Part shown: positions 11,996 through 19,169 of the stretch, piece by piece | Layout of the letters: each line of letters opens with the position of its first letter | How positions within the stretch are numbered: position 1 is the first letter of the stretch | Source: Crocinitomix sp. | GTDB lineage: Bacteria > Bacteroidota > Bacteroidia > Flavobacteriales_D > Crocinitomicaceae | Reading direction: 5' to 3' | Length of the DNA stretch: 39,648 bases | NCBI GenBank assembly: GCA_015662905.1 | Contig: DQTE01000034.1 | Span: 1-39,648 of the forward strand | Translations under genes and position numbers: made by a program | Notes under the pieces: model-generated | Told to the model about the DNA's origin: nothing | The model's database searches: none | What the model saw: the letters and a program-made list of their open reading frames with translations, nothing else

Positions 11996-12014
11996 ATTTA
12001 AAATCAATCTAAAT
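11996..12014. promoter_or_regulatory. putative Fur-type operator 1 (9-1-9 inverted repeat)
   Basis: The 19-bp sequence has half-sites ATTTAAAAT and AATCTAAAT around a central C; 7 of 9 arm positions are complementary. It shares AATCAWTCTAAAT with box 2 at 12035-12053. The 9-1-9 geometry is that of Fur boxes, and the downstream genes are an imelysin/TonB-receptor set typical of iron regulation. Identification as Fur is inferred. Confidence 0.55.
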
Positions 12015-12034: not shown

Positions 12035-12053
12035 ATTTATAATCATTCTAAAT
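12035..12053. promoter_or_regulatory. putative Fur-type operator 2 (9-1-9 inverted repeat)
   Basis: Half-sites ATTTATAAT and ATTCTAAAT around a central C; 8 of 9 arm positions are complementary. Its centre is 39 bp from that of box 1, and it ends 14 bases before the ATG at 12068. Confidence 0.6.
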
Positions 12054-12067
12054 AAAAAACAAATATT

Positions 12068-13284
12068 ATGATGCGATTAAAAACAACAATTGTTTTATTA
12101 AGTACAGTAGTATTAATTACAAACGCTTGAAAAAGAAAGGGTGTATGGATGAAAAAGCTACCAATTACTCTCAAGAAGCAAAAAAAGATGACGGAAGTTG
12201 CAAATACGACACTTTACTTTTAGTACCAACAACTTATGTGTTTACAAGAAACGGAAATAATACTGTAAGTTTTACAGGTCAAACTACGCGTATGGATATG
12301 CTTAGCGAGATGACAACGTTAATGAAAACAGCTAATATAGCTGGTGTATCTGTTTCTCAAACAGATTTACTAAATATGTATACCAATAATGGCTATACTT
12401 GGGTTGATGTTAATAATTTAGGATTGAATAATACCACCAAACAATTAAAAAACAAAACAGCTTTTGCAAATGCTAATGGCACAGCTGATGCAGGAATACA
12501 GGCAATGTTCGAAAGTTATATGATTTCGTTGGCAAACATTAGTTCCATAACCACTACAGGGGCAGAAAACGGAACGGCTGGAACGGCTGGTGTTTGGCCA
12601 AATGACGGTGTTAAAGGACCATATTTAATGGATGCAGACGGTAAAGAATATACTCAATTAATAGAAAAAGGGTTAATGTGTGTAGTTTTTATGAGTCAAA
12701 TTACAGTTAACTACCTGGAAAAAGTGAAAAATAGTGAAAACACCACTTTAGTATCTGGTGAATATTATACAGAAATGGAACATTTTTGGGATGAGGGTTA
12801 CGGCTATTTTACTGAAGCTATAGATTATCCAACAAGTGGTACAGATAGGTTTTGGGGTAAATATGCAAACAATATAGAACCTATCATTCAATCAGCATCT
12901 AAAATAAGTTTAGCTTTTAGAACAGGAAGAACAGCTATTGTCAATAAAGATTACTCTTTAAGAGATATGCAGGTAACAATAATTAGAGATGAATTAGAAA
13001 AAGTTTCTGCGGCAACCGCTATTCATTATTTGAATGTTGCAAAAACAAATATTACAAATAATACAACAAGAAACCACGCATTATCAGAAGCCTATGCATT
13101 TTTAGATGGCTTAAAATATGGCTACAATGCTATAAACGCAAAAGGAATGACATATTCGGAGATAAATACAGCTTTAGGTTATTTTGAAAACGATTTTAAC
13201 ATAGTTACATTAACTGATTTAGACAATGCAATTGATTTAATTGCCTCTAAAACAGGATTAACCAATGTAAAAAATGATTTATAA
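12068..13284 (+). CDS. DUF4856-like lipoprotein, frameshifted at the lipobox
   Basis: The main frame (readable from TTG at 12127, 385 residues) matches the DUF4856 proteins that accompany imelysin genes in Bacteroidota; their role is uncharacterised but linked to iron uptake by gene neighbourhood. It opens with KKKGCMDEKATNYSQEAKKD and then DGSCKY, a motif common near the start of Bacteroidota surface lipoproteins. A separate frame from ATG 12068 encodes a clear signal peptide (MMRLKTTIVLLSTVVLITNA) and stops at TGA 12128. Adding one base after TG at 12128-12129 would turn the stop into a Cys codon and join the two frames, giving ITNA-C-KKKGC. So a single-base deletion, or a sequencing error, falls exactly at the predicted lipidated cysteine. 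No homopolymer explains it beyond a run of five A. The stop overlaps the imelysin start (TAATG). Confidence 0.8.
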
Positions 13285-14405
13285 TGATGAAACAGAGTAT
13301 AAAAAAAATAGTAGAATTAATGATGTTTTTGGGTTTATTAATTCAATGTAAAGAAAAATCACCAGAAAACTCACCAGAAAAATACGATACAAAAACAATG
13401 GTAACTAGCATTACCAACAATTACATTATTCCTGCTTATCAAAATTATAAAACAAACACAACCAATTTATTGGATTTAATTAATATATTTATAAGTAATC
13501 CAACAGAAGTAAACCTGCAAAATTGTCAAAACCAATGGAAATCTACCGCTTTATCGTGGCAAGATGTGGCTATGTTAGATTTTGGACCAGCAAAAACAAT
13601 TAACTTAAGAGCTCAAACTAATATTTACCCAGTAGATACGACCTTAATAAAATCAAACATCTTATCAAATAGCTATGACTTACAACAACCTGAAAATTTT
13701 GATGCCAAAGGCCTTCAAACTTTGGATTACTTACTATTTATACCTGCAATGACAAACAATCAAATTGTAAATTATTATTCAACAAACTCTAATGCAAAAA
13801 CGTATTTATCAGCAATTTGTTCCGAACTAAAATCAAATGCTTTTACAGTTTTTAACCAATGGAACACAACTTATAAAACGTCATTTATAAATAACATTGA
13901 AAGTAACGCGGTTGGAACATCTGTTAGTGATATAGTAAATGCTTTAAGTTTGCACTTTGAAGCCTTTGTTAGAAAAGGAAAAGTAGGAATTCCATTAGGA
14001 GTATTTAATGGCATAACTCAACAAATTATGCCTGGTCACGTCGAAGCCTTTTATTCTGACTACTCTGTTGCTTTAGCATTACGTTCCATAGAAGCCTTTG
14101 ATAATTATATTAAAGGAAAAACATACAATTCTTTTACAAATGGTGAAGGATTAGATGATTATTTGAATTTTGTTAAGGCTAAAAATAACAATCAAGATTT
14201 ATCCATAGTTATTGAAAACAAACTAAATGAAATAAAAACGAATTTAAACGCGTTAGGAGGAAGTTTGAAAGACGCTATAACTACCAATAATTCTGCAGTG
14301 CAAACCTTATATCAATCTATGCAAGAACTAGTGCCTTTAATTAAGGTAGAAATGACGGCTAACTTAGGAGTGTTAATTGACTATCAAGACAGTGATGGAG
14401 ATTAA
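13284..14405 (+). CDS. imelysin-like lipoprotein (iron-regulated IPPA family)
   Basis: A 373-residue imelysin/peptidase-M75-like protein. The N terminus is a hydrophobic signal followed by QC (GLLIQCKEK), a plausible but atypical lipobox at Cys22. The characteristic GxHxxE site of the family is read here as GLQTLDYLLF: His is replaced by Gln and Glu by Asp. The second half carries the conserved MPGHVEAFYSDYSVALALRSIEAFDNY segment. Imelysin-like proteins are periplasmic or surface proteins tied to iron or haem uptake; protease activity is doubtful for many. The gene overlaps its upstream DUF4856 neighbour and its downstream TonB receptor by one base each, so the three are one transcript and probably one complex. 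A second ATG three bases downstream is an alternative start. Confidence 0.88.
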   Translation: MMKQSIKKIVELMMFLGLLIQCKEKSPENSPEKYDTKTMVTSITNNYIIPAYQNYKTNTTNLLDLINIFISNPTEVNLQNCQNQWKSTALSWQDVAMLDFGPAKTINLRAQTNIYPVDTTLIKSNILSNSYDLQQPENFDAKGLQTLDYLLFIPAMTNNQIVNYYSTNSNAKTYLSAICSELKSNAFTVFNQWNTTYKTSFINNIESNAVGTSVSDIVNALSLHFEAFVRKGKVGIPLGVFNGITQQIMPGHVEAFYSDYSVALALRSIEAFDNYIKGKTYNSFTNGEGLDDYLNFVKAKNNNQDLSIVIENKLNEIKTNLNALGGSLKDAITTNNSAVQTLYQSMQELVPLIKVEMTANLGVLIDYQDSDGD

Positions 14406-16825
14406 TGAAAAAAGTTTTATCAATACTATTTTTGTGTAATTCTTTTTTGTTGTTAGGACAAAAAAACGGAACTGTTACGGTTAATTTTATTGAAAAATCA
14501 ACAAAGTCAACCATTCCGTTTTTAAAAGTAAGATTGATTGAGGAAGGTACTTTTTATACGGCAGACATAAAAGGTAAACTAGAAATATCTAATTTACCTT
14601 ATGGTATGTATTCGGTTAAAATAGACAGTCTGCTCTATCAACCGTTTTTGTTTACATTTAAAGTAAATGCTTCTAATCAAAACTATACATTTAAAACCAA
14701 CCGTTTGGTTAAACAACTTAAAGAAGTGGAGGTAAGGGAAAACAACAATGTGGAAACCATACGAAAAATGCGTTCAATTGAAGGTGTTTTAATCAGTCAG
14801 GGCAAAAAAACAGAGGTAATTTCGGTAGATAAAATATCAGGAAGTAAAGCTTTGGGGTTGGGGCGTCAAGTATATTCAAGAATACCAGGATTAAATATAT
14901 GGGAGAGTGATGGAGCAGGCATACAACTTGGAATAGGAGGGCGCGGTTTAAGTCCTACAAGAACATCAAATTATAATACACGTCAAAATGGGTATGATAT
15001 TAGTGCAGACGCTTTAGGTTATCCGGAAAGTTACTACACACCACCAACAGAAGCAATCCAAGAAATTCAGCTGATAAGAGGCGCATCTTCTCTTCAGTTT
15101 GGAACACAATTTGGAGGGCTAATCAATTTTGTACTTAAAAAAGGGCACCAAAATAAAAAGGTAGAAATTTTGGGCAGACACACTGTAGGCTCATTTGGTT
15201 TAAACAGCTCGTTTTTAAGTATTGGCGGAAGTACACCAACGTTTAATTATTATGGCTACTATCAATATAAATTTGGTAATGATTGGCGTCCAAATTCAAA
15301 GTTTAAAGTACATAGTGGCGGACTATATATATATAAATATCTTAATGAGAAATTCAAAATAAGTTTAGACTTAACAAAGATGTATTACATTACTCAACAA
15401 CCCGGAGGATTAACAGATTTACAGTTTAATCAAAATCCATTACAATCTAATAGACAAAGAAATTGGTTTGAGGTAAACTGGAATTTAGGAGCCATTCAGA
15501 TTGATTATGAATTTAATGCCAGAACAAGGTTAAATTCAAGGTTTTTTGGTTTGTTGGCGTCACGTAAAGCTTTAGGTTTTTTAGGCCAAATTAACCGAGT
15601 TGATCCATTAGAAGAGCGCGATTTAATAAGTGGATATTTTAGAAATTTTGGAAATGAAACACGTTTTTTAAACGTTTACAATTTTAAAAAACAAACTTGG
15701 GCGTATGTTATTGGTTTTAGATATTACATTGGGTATAACAAAAGTCAACAAGGTTGGGCGCCAGATGGAAACTTACCTATATTTGAATACTTAAATCCTA
15801 CAAATTTAGAAGGCTCATCTTACGAATTTCCGAGTCAAAACGTAGCCTTGTTTGCTGAACATATTTTCAATATAAATAAAAAGTTTAGCATCACCCCAGG
15901 CATAAGGTATGAGATTATATTAACTACAGCAAACGGCACTTATCGCGTACAAATAGAAGATTTAGCGGGCAACATCATTTTTGACAGTACTTATTTAGAC
16001 CAAAAACAAAACCACCGTCAATTTGTTATTGCAGGAGTAGGTATTTTGTATAGGTTAAACGACAGTATAGAGTTTTACGCAAATGCAACACAAAATTACA
16101 GAAGTATCAATTTCACAGATATGCAAATACAAAACCCTAATTTTAAAATTGACCCTAATTTGGAGGATGAAAAAGGGTATAATTCGGATTTAGGAGTTAG
16201 AGGAAAGATTAAACATAAAATTTTCTATGACGTCTCCTTGTTTGCTTTATATTATAATAACAGAATAGGTACAACCATAGAAACCGACAGTATATTATAC
16301 AATACATATCAATACAGAACAAATATATCTGCGTCTATTACCACTGGAATTGAAGCTGTGGCAGAAATACAATTATGGAATTGGTTGACGAATGACTCTT
16401 CTAGCTTTGATTTAAGTTATTTTGTAAACGCATCTTATGTAAACGCAAGATATATTAACTCAAAAGAGCCTGCTTATGAGGGTAAATTTGTGGAGTTAGC
16501 ATCCCCTTTTAATCTAAAAACCGGTATTACAGCAAAATATAAATCAATTTCTACATCTATACAATATACTTATACACAACAACACTTTTCAGATGCTACA
16601 AACTCAGCTTATCAACCAAACGCCGTTAACGGCATCATACCAACCTACCAAATACTTGATTTTTCATTAAATTATAAATATAAAAAATGGTTACAGATAG
16701 AGGCTGGGATAAATAACGTAACAAACACAATCTATTTTACAAGACGAGCAACTGGATATCCAGGACCTGGAATAATACCTGCATCACCACGTAATTATTA
16801 TTTAACATTACAGTTTAAGTTTTAA
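14405..16825 (+). CDS. FecA-like TonB-dependent outer-membrane receptor
   Basis: An 806-residue outer-membrane receptor. Residues 1-18 are a signal peptide ending LLGQ. Residues ~22-105 form the carboxypeptidase-regulatory-like beta domain usual in Bacteroidota receptors. The plug follows (about 110-240), with the IGGRGLSPTRTSNYNTRQNG and IQEIQLIRGASSLQFGTQFG segments that resemble ferric-citrate (FecA-type) receptors. The rest is the 22-stranded barrel, ending in aromatic YYLTLQFKF as required for outer-membrane insertion. Position in an imelysin operon behind Fur-like boxes suggests an iron chelate substrate; which one is not visible. One-base overlap upstream, 2-base gap to the desaturase-like gene downstream. 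Confidence 0.92.
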   Translation: MKKVLSILFLCNSFLLLGQKNGTVTVNFIEKSTKSTIPFLKVRLIEEGTFYTADIKGKLEISNLPYGMYSVKIDSLLYQPFLFTFKVNASNQNYTFKTNRLVKQLKEVEVRENNNVETIRKMRSIEGVLISQGKKTEVISVDKISGSKALGLGRQVYSRIPGLNIWESDGAGIQLGIGGRGLSPTRTSNYNTRQNGYDISADALGYPESYYTPPTEAIQEIQLIRGASSLQFGTQFGGLINFVLKKGHQNKKVEILGRHTVGSFGLNSSFLSIGGSTPTFNYYGYYQYKFGNDWRPNSKFKVHSGGLYIYKYLNEKFKISLDLTKMYYITQQPGGLTDLQFNQNPLQSNRQRNWFEVNWNLGAIQIDYEFNARTRLNSRFFGLLASRKALGFLGQINRVDPLEERDLISGYFRNFGNETRFLNVYNFKKQTWAYVIGFRYYIGYNKSQQGWAPDGNLPIFEYLNPTNLEGSSYEFPSQNVALFAEHIFNINKKFSITPGIRYEIILTTANGTYRVQIEDLAGNIIFDSTYLDQKQNHRQFVIAGVGILYRLNDSIEFYANATQNYRSINFTDMQIQNPNFKIDPNLEDEKGYNSDLGVRGKIKHKIFYDVSLFALYYNNRIGTTIETDSILYNTYQYRTNISASITTGIEAVAEIQLWNWLTNDSSSFDLSYFVNASYVNARYINSKEPAYEGKFVELASPFNLKTGITAKYKSISTSIQYTYTQQHFSDATNSAYQPNAVNGIIPTYQILDFSLNYKYKKWLQIEAGINNVTNTIYFTRRATGYPGPGIIPASPRNYYLTLQFKF

Positions 16826-16827
16826 AA

Positions 16828-17793
16828 ATGACGTTAAATGATTTTTATATTAACACGTATAATTCACTTATTAGAGTAATAAACTACACTATTAATTCCG
16901 ACAAAAGAATTTTTTGGCTGTATTTGGTGTCGTCAATGTTATTGGCCTATTATGTTTATCATAAAACCAAGAAAAAATATTCTTTTTTAAAATACATTTT
17001 CAACAAAAAAGTATGGTTAAGTCAATCTTCTAAGGTAGATTACGCTTTAATCTTTATCAATAGCTTTGTAAAAGTATTTTTGTTAGGGTCATTTGTGTAT
17101 TATGGGTTAAAACTAGCTTATTATACAGATGAATACCTATCACACACCTTAGGTTTGTCAGACAATAATTTTTCGCATTTTCAAATAATGTTTGGTTTTA
17201 CAATTACTTTAACCATTTTAAAAGATTTAGGAACTTACCTTACACATTTAGCACAACATAAAATATCTTTTTTGTGGGAGTTTCACAAAGTTCACCATTC
17301 TGCTACTGTTTTAAACCCTATTACACAGTATAGAATTCATCCAGTTGAGCTTATTATTAATAATATTACAGCAACATTAATTTTTGGTATAACAATGGGT
17401 GTTTTTGATTACTTATCTAATCACCCCATTGATGAATTAGAGTTTTTAGGCGTTAATGTTTTTAGTTTTGCCTTTTTATTTTTCGGAGCAAATTTACGCC
17501 ATTCACACGTAAAATTAAAATACTTTAACAAATTAGAAAACATTTTTATCAGTCCTTTTCAACATCAAATTCACCACAGCAACAACCCTATCCATTTCGA
17601 TAAAAATTTAGGTGCAAAACTTGCTATTTGGGACTGGATGTTTGGAACTTTGGTTAAATCAGAATCAGTAGCAACTTTAAAATTTGGTTTGGGAAAAAAT
17701 GACGACATAAATTATACCACAATTTTTCAAAATTTGTATATGCCGTTTTTAAAAGTTAGCCAACACCTTACAAAGTGGTTCAAAAACAGGTAA
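16828..17793 (+). CDS. fatty-acid hydroxylase / sterol desaturase family membrane di-iron protein
   Basis: A 321-residue membrane protein with several hydrophobic segments and the histidine clusters of the fatty-acid-hydroxylase superfamily: HLAQH (His140, His144), HKVHH (His153, His156, His157), RHSHV, and HQIHH (His246, His249, His250). These bind a di-iron centre for O2-dependent hydroxylation or desaturation of a lipid substrate. It begins 2 bases after the TonB receptor stop, so it is translationally linked to the iron-type operon. An iron-dependent oxygenase made only under iron limitation would be surprising, so it may act on a siderophore or membrane lipid; that is speculation. Family call is firm, substrate unknown. 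Confidence 0.88.
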   Translation: MTLNDFYINTYNSLIRVINYTINSDKRIFWLYLVSSMLLAYYVYHKTKKKYSFLKYIFNKKVWLSQSSKVDYALIFINSFVKVFLLGSFVYYGLKLAYYTDEYLSHTLGLSDNNFSHFQIMFGFTITLTILKDLGTYLTHLAQHKISFLWEFHKVHHSATVLNPITQYRIHPVELIINNITATLIFGITMGVFDYLSNHPIDELEFLGVNVFSFAFLFFGANLRHSHVKLKYFNKLENIFISPFQHQIHHSNNPIHFDKNLGAKLAIWDWMFGTLVKSESVATLKFGLGKNDDINYTTIFQNLYMPFLKVSQHLTKWFKNR

Positions 17794-18191: not shown

Positions 18192-19169
18192 ATGGCGGAG
18201 CAAAACGAACCTATTTTGACTGAAAACCCAACCAGATTTGTGCTTTTTCCAATTGAGCATGATGATATTTGGCAAGCATATAAAACTCAACAAGCAATGA
18301 TTTGGACTGCTGAGGAAATTGATTTTCAGCAGGACACTACAGATTGGGAAAACAATTTGAGTGATGACGAAAGGTATTTTATTAAACACGTTCTAGCGTT
18401 TTTTGCAGCTTCTGATGGAATTGTAAATGAAAATTTAGCTGAAAACTTTGTTAAAGAAGTGCAATATACAGAAGCAAAATTCTTTTATGGTTTTCAAATT
18501 ATGATGGAAAATGTTCATTCAGAAACGTACTCGTTGATGATTGACACCTATATAAAAGACAGTAAAGAAAAAGATTATTTATTCAATGCTATTGATACAT
18601 TTCCCCCTGTTCGTAAAAAAGCAGATTGGGCATTGAACTGGATTGATAATGGAAGCTTTGCGCAAAGATTAATTGCATTTGCTGCCGTAGAAGGTATTTT
18701 CTTTTCGGGTTCTTTTTGTTCTATTTTTTGGTTAAAAAAACGTGGATTAATGCCAGGGTTAACGTTCTCTAATGAATTAATTTCAAGAGATGAAGGAATG
18801 CACATGGAATTTGCAGTGTTGTTATATACTAAGCATTTAAAAAATAAATTACCAAAAGAAGAAGTTCAAGAAATTATAACAACAGCAGTTGAAATAGAAA
18901 AAGAGTTTGTTACAGAATCTTTACCAGTAAGATTAATAGGTATGAATGCAGACTTAATGGCACAATATATTGAGTTTGTTGCAGATAGATTGTTAGTTGA
19001 GTTAGGAAACGACAAAGTATATAATGTAACAAACCCCTTTGACTTTATGGATATGATTAACCTACAAGGTAAAACAAACTTCTTTGAAAAAAGAGTAGGA
19101 GAATATCAAAAGGCAGGTGTGAAATCAGGCGGAGAAAATCAAACATTTTCTTTAGATGCCGATTTTTAA
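18192..19169 (+). CDS. nrdB: ribonucleoside-diphosphate reductase, small (beta) subunit, class Ia
   Basis: A 325-residue beta subunit supplying the tyrosyl radical for dNTP synthesis. The sequence is closer in pattern to eukaryotic R2 than to E. coli NrdB: the [28 protein letters not shown] and [10 protein letters not shown] segments align without gaps. All expected metal ligands are present (Asp75, Glu106, His109, Glu167, Glu201, His204) as is the radical tyrosine (Tyr113). The C-terminal tail FSLDADF is the peptide that docks in the alpha subunit. The start has no Shine-Dalgarno sequence, as is normal for the phylum. The alpha subunit follows after 64 bases, and the two probably form one operon ending at the terminator at 21663. 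Confidence 0.96.

Follow-up and report, generated by a model that had tools for sequence, protein, structure and literature searches.

The closest described counterparts of the locus analysed here are imelysin operons under iron control. In Riemerella anatipestifer, RAYM_09779-09794 encode a TonB receptor, a vitamin K-dependent gamma-carboxylase, an imelysin and a hypothetical protein; the consecutive imelysin, carboxylase and receptor genes are Fur-controlled and induced by iron limitation, and Fur binding to the box ATTTAGAATTATTCTAAAT was demonstrated by electrophoretic mobility shift assay (PMC5609570). Imelysins likewise stand in Fur- or iron-regulated operons in the IrpA/ICMP/LruB systems of Pseudomonas (PA4370-4373), Vibrio and Leptospira (PMC3143127, PMC13066512), for which no fatty-acid-hydroxylase-type enzyme has been reported. 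Here, we examine a 39,648-nucleotide stretch of Crocinitomix sp. (assembly GCA_015662905.1, contig DQTE01000034.1; hereafter the window), which carries a four-gene operon on the plus strand in the order DUF4856 protein, imelysin, TonB receptor and a fatty-acid-hydroxylase-type enzyme of the PF04116 family (FAH).

The Riemerella locus is alike in its receptor, imelysin, Fur box, and iron and Fur regulation, with the gene order of relatives that carry an HTTM/vitamin K-dependent gamma-carboxylase homologue (VKGC); its fourth gene, however, encodes VKGC rather than FAH, and its hypothetical gene would correspond to DUF4856. The IrpA/ICMP/LruB operons have the layout of the campylobacterial FAH loci described below, minus FAH, with DHOR and a second imelysin where the window has DUF4856. 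EfeUOB has an imelysin-family periplasmic component in common with the window operon, which lacks the EfeU permease and EfeB peroxidase and has an outer-membrane receptor instead. From operon anatomy, Fur boxes, synteny, enzyme alternation and conserved catalytic residues, we consider it fairly probable that the locus is a Fur-controlled ferric uptake system in which FAH and VKGC functionally replace each other. No earlier report of such a replacement was found, and no literature linking imelysin with DUF4856, HTTM, sterol desaturase or fatty acid hydroxylase, in a search that covered few subscription papers.

Alternation of FAH and VKGC and linkage to imelysin

Matches for FAH, DUF4856 and VKGC were counted in 150 genomes of the window's order. 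DUF4856 was present in 58, nearly always beside imelysin, and an FAH orthologue (E < 1e-90) in four, the next matches, at 1e-17, being other PF04116 families. For the reverse comparison, 40 neighbourhoods of the sample were fetched, and the FAH-less operons among them read DUF4856-imelysin-X-receptor, where X encodes a protein of about 450 amino acids. This protein is VKGC: it matches PF05090 (HTTM; 2e-76) and the lumenal domain PF22777 (2e-50), aligns with human GGCX at 4e-64, and bears an invariant lysine opposite the second lysine of the human KK pair, which we take to be the catalytic base. By these domains and the invariant lysine, it is a gamma-carboxylase homologue with putative carboxylase activity. 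GGCX and the bacterial HTTM proteins have no sequence or domain relation to FAH; in most Flavobacteriales, such a homologue occupies its operon slot.

Scored by genome, four carried FAH only, 52 VKGC only, none both and two neither; in these last two (G037 and G147) the operon is a fragment, ending or broken at contig level, which leaves 56 assessable genomes. VKGC was found in all 52 FAH-less assessable genomes, normally inside the same operon, and the alternation is significant when relatedness is ignored (Fisher p 2.7e-6). Two findings address relatedness in part: supported branches of the imelysin tree force at least 5-6 changes of the FAH and VKGC labels, and a single genus (g3) contains both states (G019 versus G064 and G103). 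The wider Bacteroidota set shows several independent switches, with two small groups carrying both genes, and no VKGC was found in 28 FAH genomes from outside Bacteroidota, in a search that had no positive control of its own but used a single-protein query that worked in other searches. The initial annotation had treated absence of the oxygenase gene from the locus in most relatives as evidence against its proposal. Literally, 52 of the 56 assessable genomes of this order show just that, but since VKGC fills the slot in the FAH-less operons, FAH is replaced rather than missing. FAH and VKGC most likely serve the same step.

Two observations concern disrupted operons. One locus (L240, 8404-9150) has a 747-base gap between imelysin and receptor, the VKGC/FAH position, and FAH elsewhere (L043, with its own Fur box); the gap may be what remains of a lost gene. 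Three VKGC-type operons (G045:C1:360780-364534, G090:C52:20189-21533 and G054:C14:131425-133840) are interrupted by several stops or frame breaks, which suggests decay or assembly errors.

A profile scan for FAH over 84,980 species genomes extended the comparison, with locus counts resting on the best 80 loci. In 63 of these, counted manually, the FAH subfamily lies near an imelysin or DUF4856 gene (within about 10 kb), mostly adjacent to it, and the loci come from Bacteroidota, Gammaproteobacteria, Campylobacterota, SAR324 and Nitrospirota. In Bacteroidota, FAH stands behind, before, inside or divergent from a DUF4856-imelysin-receptor unit. Gammaproteobacteria such as Pseudoalteromonas, Shewanella and Aliikangiella have DUF4856-imelysin-receptor-FAH, and in a second reference sample, a gammaproteobacterial order, FAH follows in all 12 assessable operons. 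Campylobacterota and a few others combine imelysin, a DHOR di-haem enzyme, a second imelysin, FAH and a MauG/MbnH-like di-haem enzyme, the last matching the NCBIfam MbnH family best (155 bits, under the cut-off of 363). Further variants occur in SAR324 (L108) and Nitrospirota (L111).

That FAH is a chance or hitchhiking neighbour could draw on its absence from most operons in the window's order; we nevertheless reject this explanation as very improbable because the linkage recurs in five phyla and in all 12 gammaproteobacterial operons. The oxygenase thus appears, as initially proposed, to be a real member of a distinct system. Where FAH stands alone, this imelysin is encoded elsewhere in 14 of 16 genomes, among them every one of the 12 Bacteroidota whose flanks were fully extended. 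VKGC is also missing from the DUF4856-imelysin-receptor operons of nine Bacteroidota genomes whose FAH lies elsewhere and of one gammaproteobacterium, as would be consistent with an FAH that works in trans.

Three further settings were recorded. Two loci join the DHOR/second-imelysin layout with the DUF4856-imelysin layout and so bridge both forms (L089 516-11038, L100 1599-12523). In two others (L034 9162-9906, L036 9172-9920), stand-alone FAH follows a cupin gene and a gene for a 130-amino-acid protein, globin-like by our own reading and with no Pfam match, a different conserved neighbourhood. A high-GC gammaproteobacterial metagenome-assembled genome without detectable imelysin has a weak, sub-cut-off HTTM match (643 amino acids) directly upstream of FAH (L092 7840-9956).

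Operon anatomy and putative Fur boxes in the window

The operon and its promoter comprise the following features:

11996..12014, no strand assigned: putative Fur box 1, ATTTAAAATCAATCTAAAT, 3 mismatches to the Riemerella Fur box
12035..12053, no strand assigned: putative Fur box 2, ATTTATAATCATTCTAAAT, 2 mismatches to the Riemerella Fur box
12068..12130, plus strand: DUF4856 signal peptide, lipoprotein type, out of frame with the remainder (read from the sequence; homologues continuous)
12127..13284, plus strand: DUF4856 protein (PF16148, E 4e-58)
13284..14405, plus strand: imelysin-family lipoprotein (PF09375, E 3e-28), GxxxxD replacing GxHxxE
14405..16825, plus strand: TonB-dependent receptor (PF00593, 3e-26, and PF07715)
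16828..17793, plus strand: FAH membrane enzyme (PF04116, E 8e-21), all expected metal-site histidines kept

The tight spacing initially described agrees with both coordinates and Pfam identities: DUF4856 and imelysin overlap by one base (13284), imelysin and receptor by another (14405), and two bases separate the receptor end (16825) from the FAH start (16828). This last junction speaks against an iron-independent promoter of FAH's own in the window. Downstream, the next gene encodes a ribonucleotide reductase small chain at 18192, 398 bases away. Rfam detected no RNA elements in the window at gathering scores.

The Riemerella Fur box (PMC5609570) served as the query for promoter scans, with a cut-off of at most 3 mismatches in the window. 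Both boxes stand shortly 5' of the ATG at 12068 and are the sole such sites in 39.6 kb; counted by strand, there are 4 matches against 0.28 expected, a number reached by 0 of 100 shuffles. Elsewhere in the assembly, the remaining sites with at most 2 mismatches precede genes for pyruvate:ferredoxin oxidoreductase, a SufS-like aminotransferase-V protein, nqrA, a multihaem c-type cytochrome and sdhC/sdhA; most of these genes have to do with iron, haem or Fe-S, as would be expected for Fur. The respective contigs of this genome (C260, C61, C88, C218 and C306 of G000, the last with sdhC) outline a candidate Fur regulon made up of respiratory enzymes that use iron.

Where the promoter is intact, nearly all Bacteroidota FAH loci have a Fur box of at most 3 mismatches before DUF4856, against a median best of 6-7 mismatches for the other genes. 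The first gene of gammaproteobacterial and campylobacterial loci is closer to an E. coli-type Fur box than the rest of the same loci (mean 5.8 versus 7.6 mismatches; Mann-Whitney p 4e-14, with related loci not independent). The putative boxes in the promoter thus support placing the operon in the Fur regulon, and together with the conserved synteny they bear out the initial reading of an iron-type operon with tight co-expression.

Component proteins and the FAH active site

The DUF4856 gene is interrupted near its start. The frame opened by ATG 12068 ends at TGA 12128-12130 and that of DUF4856 does not open before TTG 12127, which places signal peptide and mature part in different frames. Because most homologues are continuous across this region, with a lipobox ending in cysteine, and the window is one base short there, the break appears to be either a one-base assembly error or a genuine lesion; it leaves the other three operon genes untouched. 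Directly behind the lipid-anchored cysteine, the window (12127-12200) and many homologues share the motif GC(T/M)DxxAxNYxxxAxxDDGSCxY, a short acidic repeat with a cysteine bridge. Signals for a kinship of DUF4856 with imelysin are weak: fold comparison gave EfeM (7q1g, Z 5.8, 152 residues aligned), Algp7 (3at7, Z 5.1) and PIBO (3n8u, Z 4.9) amid unrelated helical bundles scoring up to Z 10.9, and the hhalign match to imelysin covers mainly the N-terminal region.

The imelysin belongs to the M75 family by its Pfam score (99.7 bits, gathering 23.5). It lacks the canonical GxHxxE motif, in whose place G143-x4-D148 is conserved; a GxxxxE variant is reported in the IPPA group of imelysins (PMC3143127). 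The receptor's initial label, FecA-like, proved loose: it scores 89 bits against the NCBIfam FecA equivalog, whose cut-off is 1100, and FecA identity finds no support.

FAH scores 75.3 bits against PF04116 (gathering 31) and has the histidine-box motifs HxxxH, HxxHH and HxxHH with further histidines. The ten metal-site residues (H140, 144, 153, 156, 157, 171, 225, 246, 249 and 250) are invariant in 48 of 48 homologues, and the predicted model is confident (predicted local distance difference test 93); for these reasons FAH is probably a working enzyme. By the positive-inside rule, we infer that the metal-site histidines face the cytoplasm. Sequence search found no solved structure at E <= 1, and Foldseek no match at E <= 0.001, which is not evidence for a new fold; the top row of VIA-align was Scs7p (4zr0), at a weak Z of 3.6 over 177 residues. 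The fatty acid 2-hydroxylase Scs7p and the ornithine lipid hydroxylase OlsE have the PF04116 superfamily and histidine-box architecture in common with FAH, but differ in genomic setting. A second PF04116 protein of this genome (G000:C279:7313-7726) does not reach the threshold set for relatives of the window FAH.

This kinship raises lipid remodelling, in which FAH would hydroxylate a membrane lipid of ornithine-lipid or fatty-acid type under iron limitation, with iron uptake merely co-regulated. PF04116 enzymes are mostly lipid hydroxylases, OlsE is the best NCBIfam match, and an OlsB/OlsF-type acyltransferase domain occurs in 19 of 28 FAH genomes. However, the OlsE match (47 bits) is far below its cut-off of 475, and OlsE identity was rejected; the other nine genomes, some incomplete, lack such an acyltransferase, and both the imelysin linkage and the VKGC alternation would go unexplained. 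We therefore regard lipid remodelling as unlikely; the linkage and these nine genomes lead us to favour an enzyme that processes a ligand or partner instead of remodelling lipids in bulk.

Likely cargo and possible role of the fourth gene

FbpA-FbpB-FbpC genes adjoin the operon in several lineages of both the FAH and the VKGC type. The best matches of the FbpA-like protein are ferric-ion binding proteins of solved structure (E 1e-107 and 1e-95), not the thiamine or phosphonate models, which stayed under their NCBIfam cut-offs. Because of this adjacency and the iron and Fur control of the Riemerella genes, iron is the likely cargo, probably as ferric ion released in the periplasm. In the explanation we favour, Fur would repress a ferric-iron uptake operon whose TonB receptor passes an iron complex across the outer membrane; the imelysin and DUF4856 lipoproteins would take or hold iron in the periplasm, and the ferric-ion ATP-binding cassette transporter FbpABC, encoded nearby in several relatives, would move it inward. 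The fourth gene would supply a needed, oxygen-dependent enzyme of the inner membrane, FAH here and VKGC in most Flavobacteriales. Our first guess at its role, which we hold with considerable doubt, is that the enzyme uses oxygen to process an imported ligand or a partner, such that iron can bind or leave on its inward path. What both enzymes could have in common is a substrate within reach of the membrane, be it a quinol, a lipid, a lipid-anchored protein or a ligand brought in with iron.

Several observations weigh against this explanation. Both enzymes lie in one operon in three Tenacibaculum records (Tenacibaculum dicentrarchi, finnmarkense), and in three other genomes (those of L034, L036 and L050) the operon holds VKGC and FAH lies outside it; these rule out strict exclusivity, and because of them FAH and VKGC may do different things. 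The FAH histidines are predicted to be cytoplasmic, while the extra domain of VKGC is expected in the periplasm. A Fur box is missing from 11 of the 12 Bacteroidota stand-alone FAH genes, L043 being the exception, and the window's own DUF4856 gene is frameshifted.

The chemistry of the fourth gene allows three more specific readings. FbpA-type proteins bind free ferric ion, and iron must therefore leave its carrier in the periplasm; FAH could oxidise an imported chelate or siderophore and so free iron for FbpA, and the receptor makes a chelate plausible. The predicted cytoplasmic face of the active site counts against such ligand chemistry, as does the lack of recurrent ligand-catabolism genes beside the operon, and we rate it as rather unlikely. 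Alternatively, FAH or VKGC could covalently alter imelysin, DUF4856 or receptor to create or tune an iron site. VKGC enzymes carboxylate proteins, and in the campylobacterial layout imelysins and FAH have DHOR and a MauG/MbnH-like di-haem enzyme next to them; MauG-like MbnH reportedly makes a kynurenine copper ligand in MbnP. But no glutamate column conserved in the partners of VKGC operons and lost in FAH operons was found, and PF04116 enzymes mostly act on lipids and have cytoplasmic active sites, which makes partner modification doubtful. Least of these three in our estimate, and distinctly improbable, is direct iron or electron handling, with FAH and VKGC as quinol- or oxygen-linked membrane redox modules that set the oxidation state of imelysin-bound iron. 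VKGC oxidises a quinol, and the imelysins of the campylobacterial layout come with di-haem redox enzymes of the periplasm, but the window operon has no haem, flavin or ferredoxin partner, and the catalytic residues of FAH and VKGC point to full oxygenase chemistry.

The operon connects two problems: the mechanism of imelysins, long tied to iron but, to our knowledge, without one, and the role of bacterial vitamin K carboxylase homologues, for which we know of no settled function. The repeated swap of VKGC and FAH makes a clean genetic test by cross-complementation possible and narrows the chemistry to what two unrelated oxygen-using membrane enzymes can both do. That a di-iron hydroxylase-type enzyme and a vitamin K carboxylase homologue can stand in for each other within a single iron-uptake machine is a tentative proposal, which we would doubt slightly more readily than accept. 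If true, such interchangeability would place bacterial VKGC homologues in the physiology of iron acquisition and would mean that the two enzymes share one iron-handling group as the thing they build or process. More broadly, a gene of a marine bacterium labelled 'fatty acid hydroxylase' or 'sterol desaturase' can in fact be one for iron uptake.

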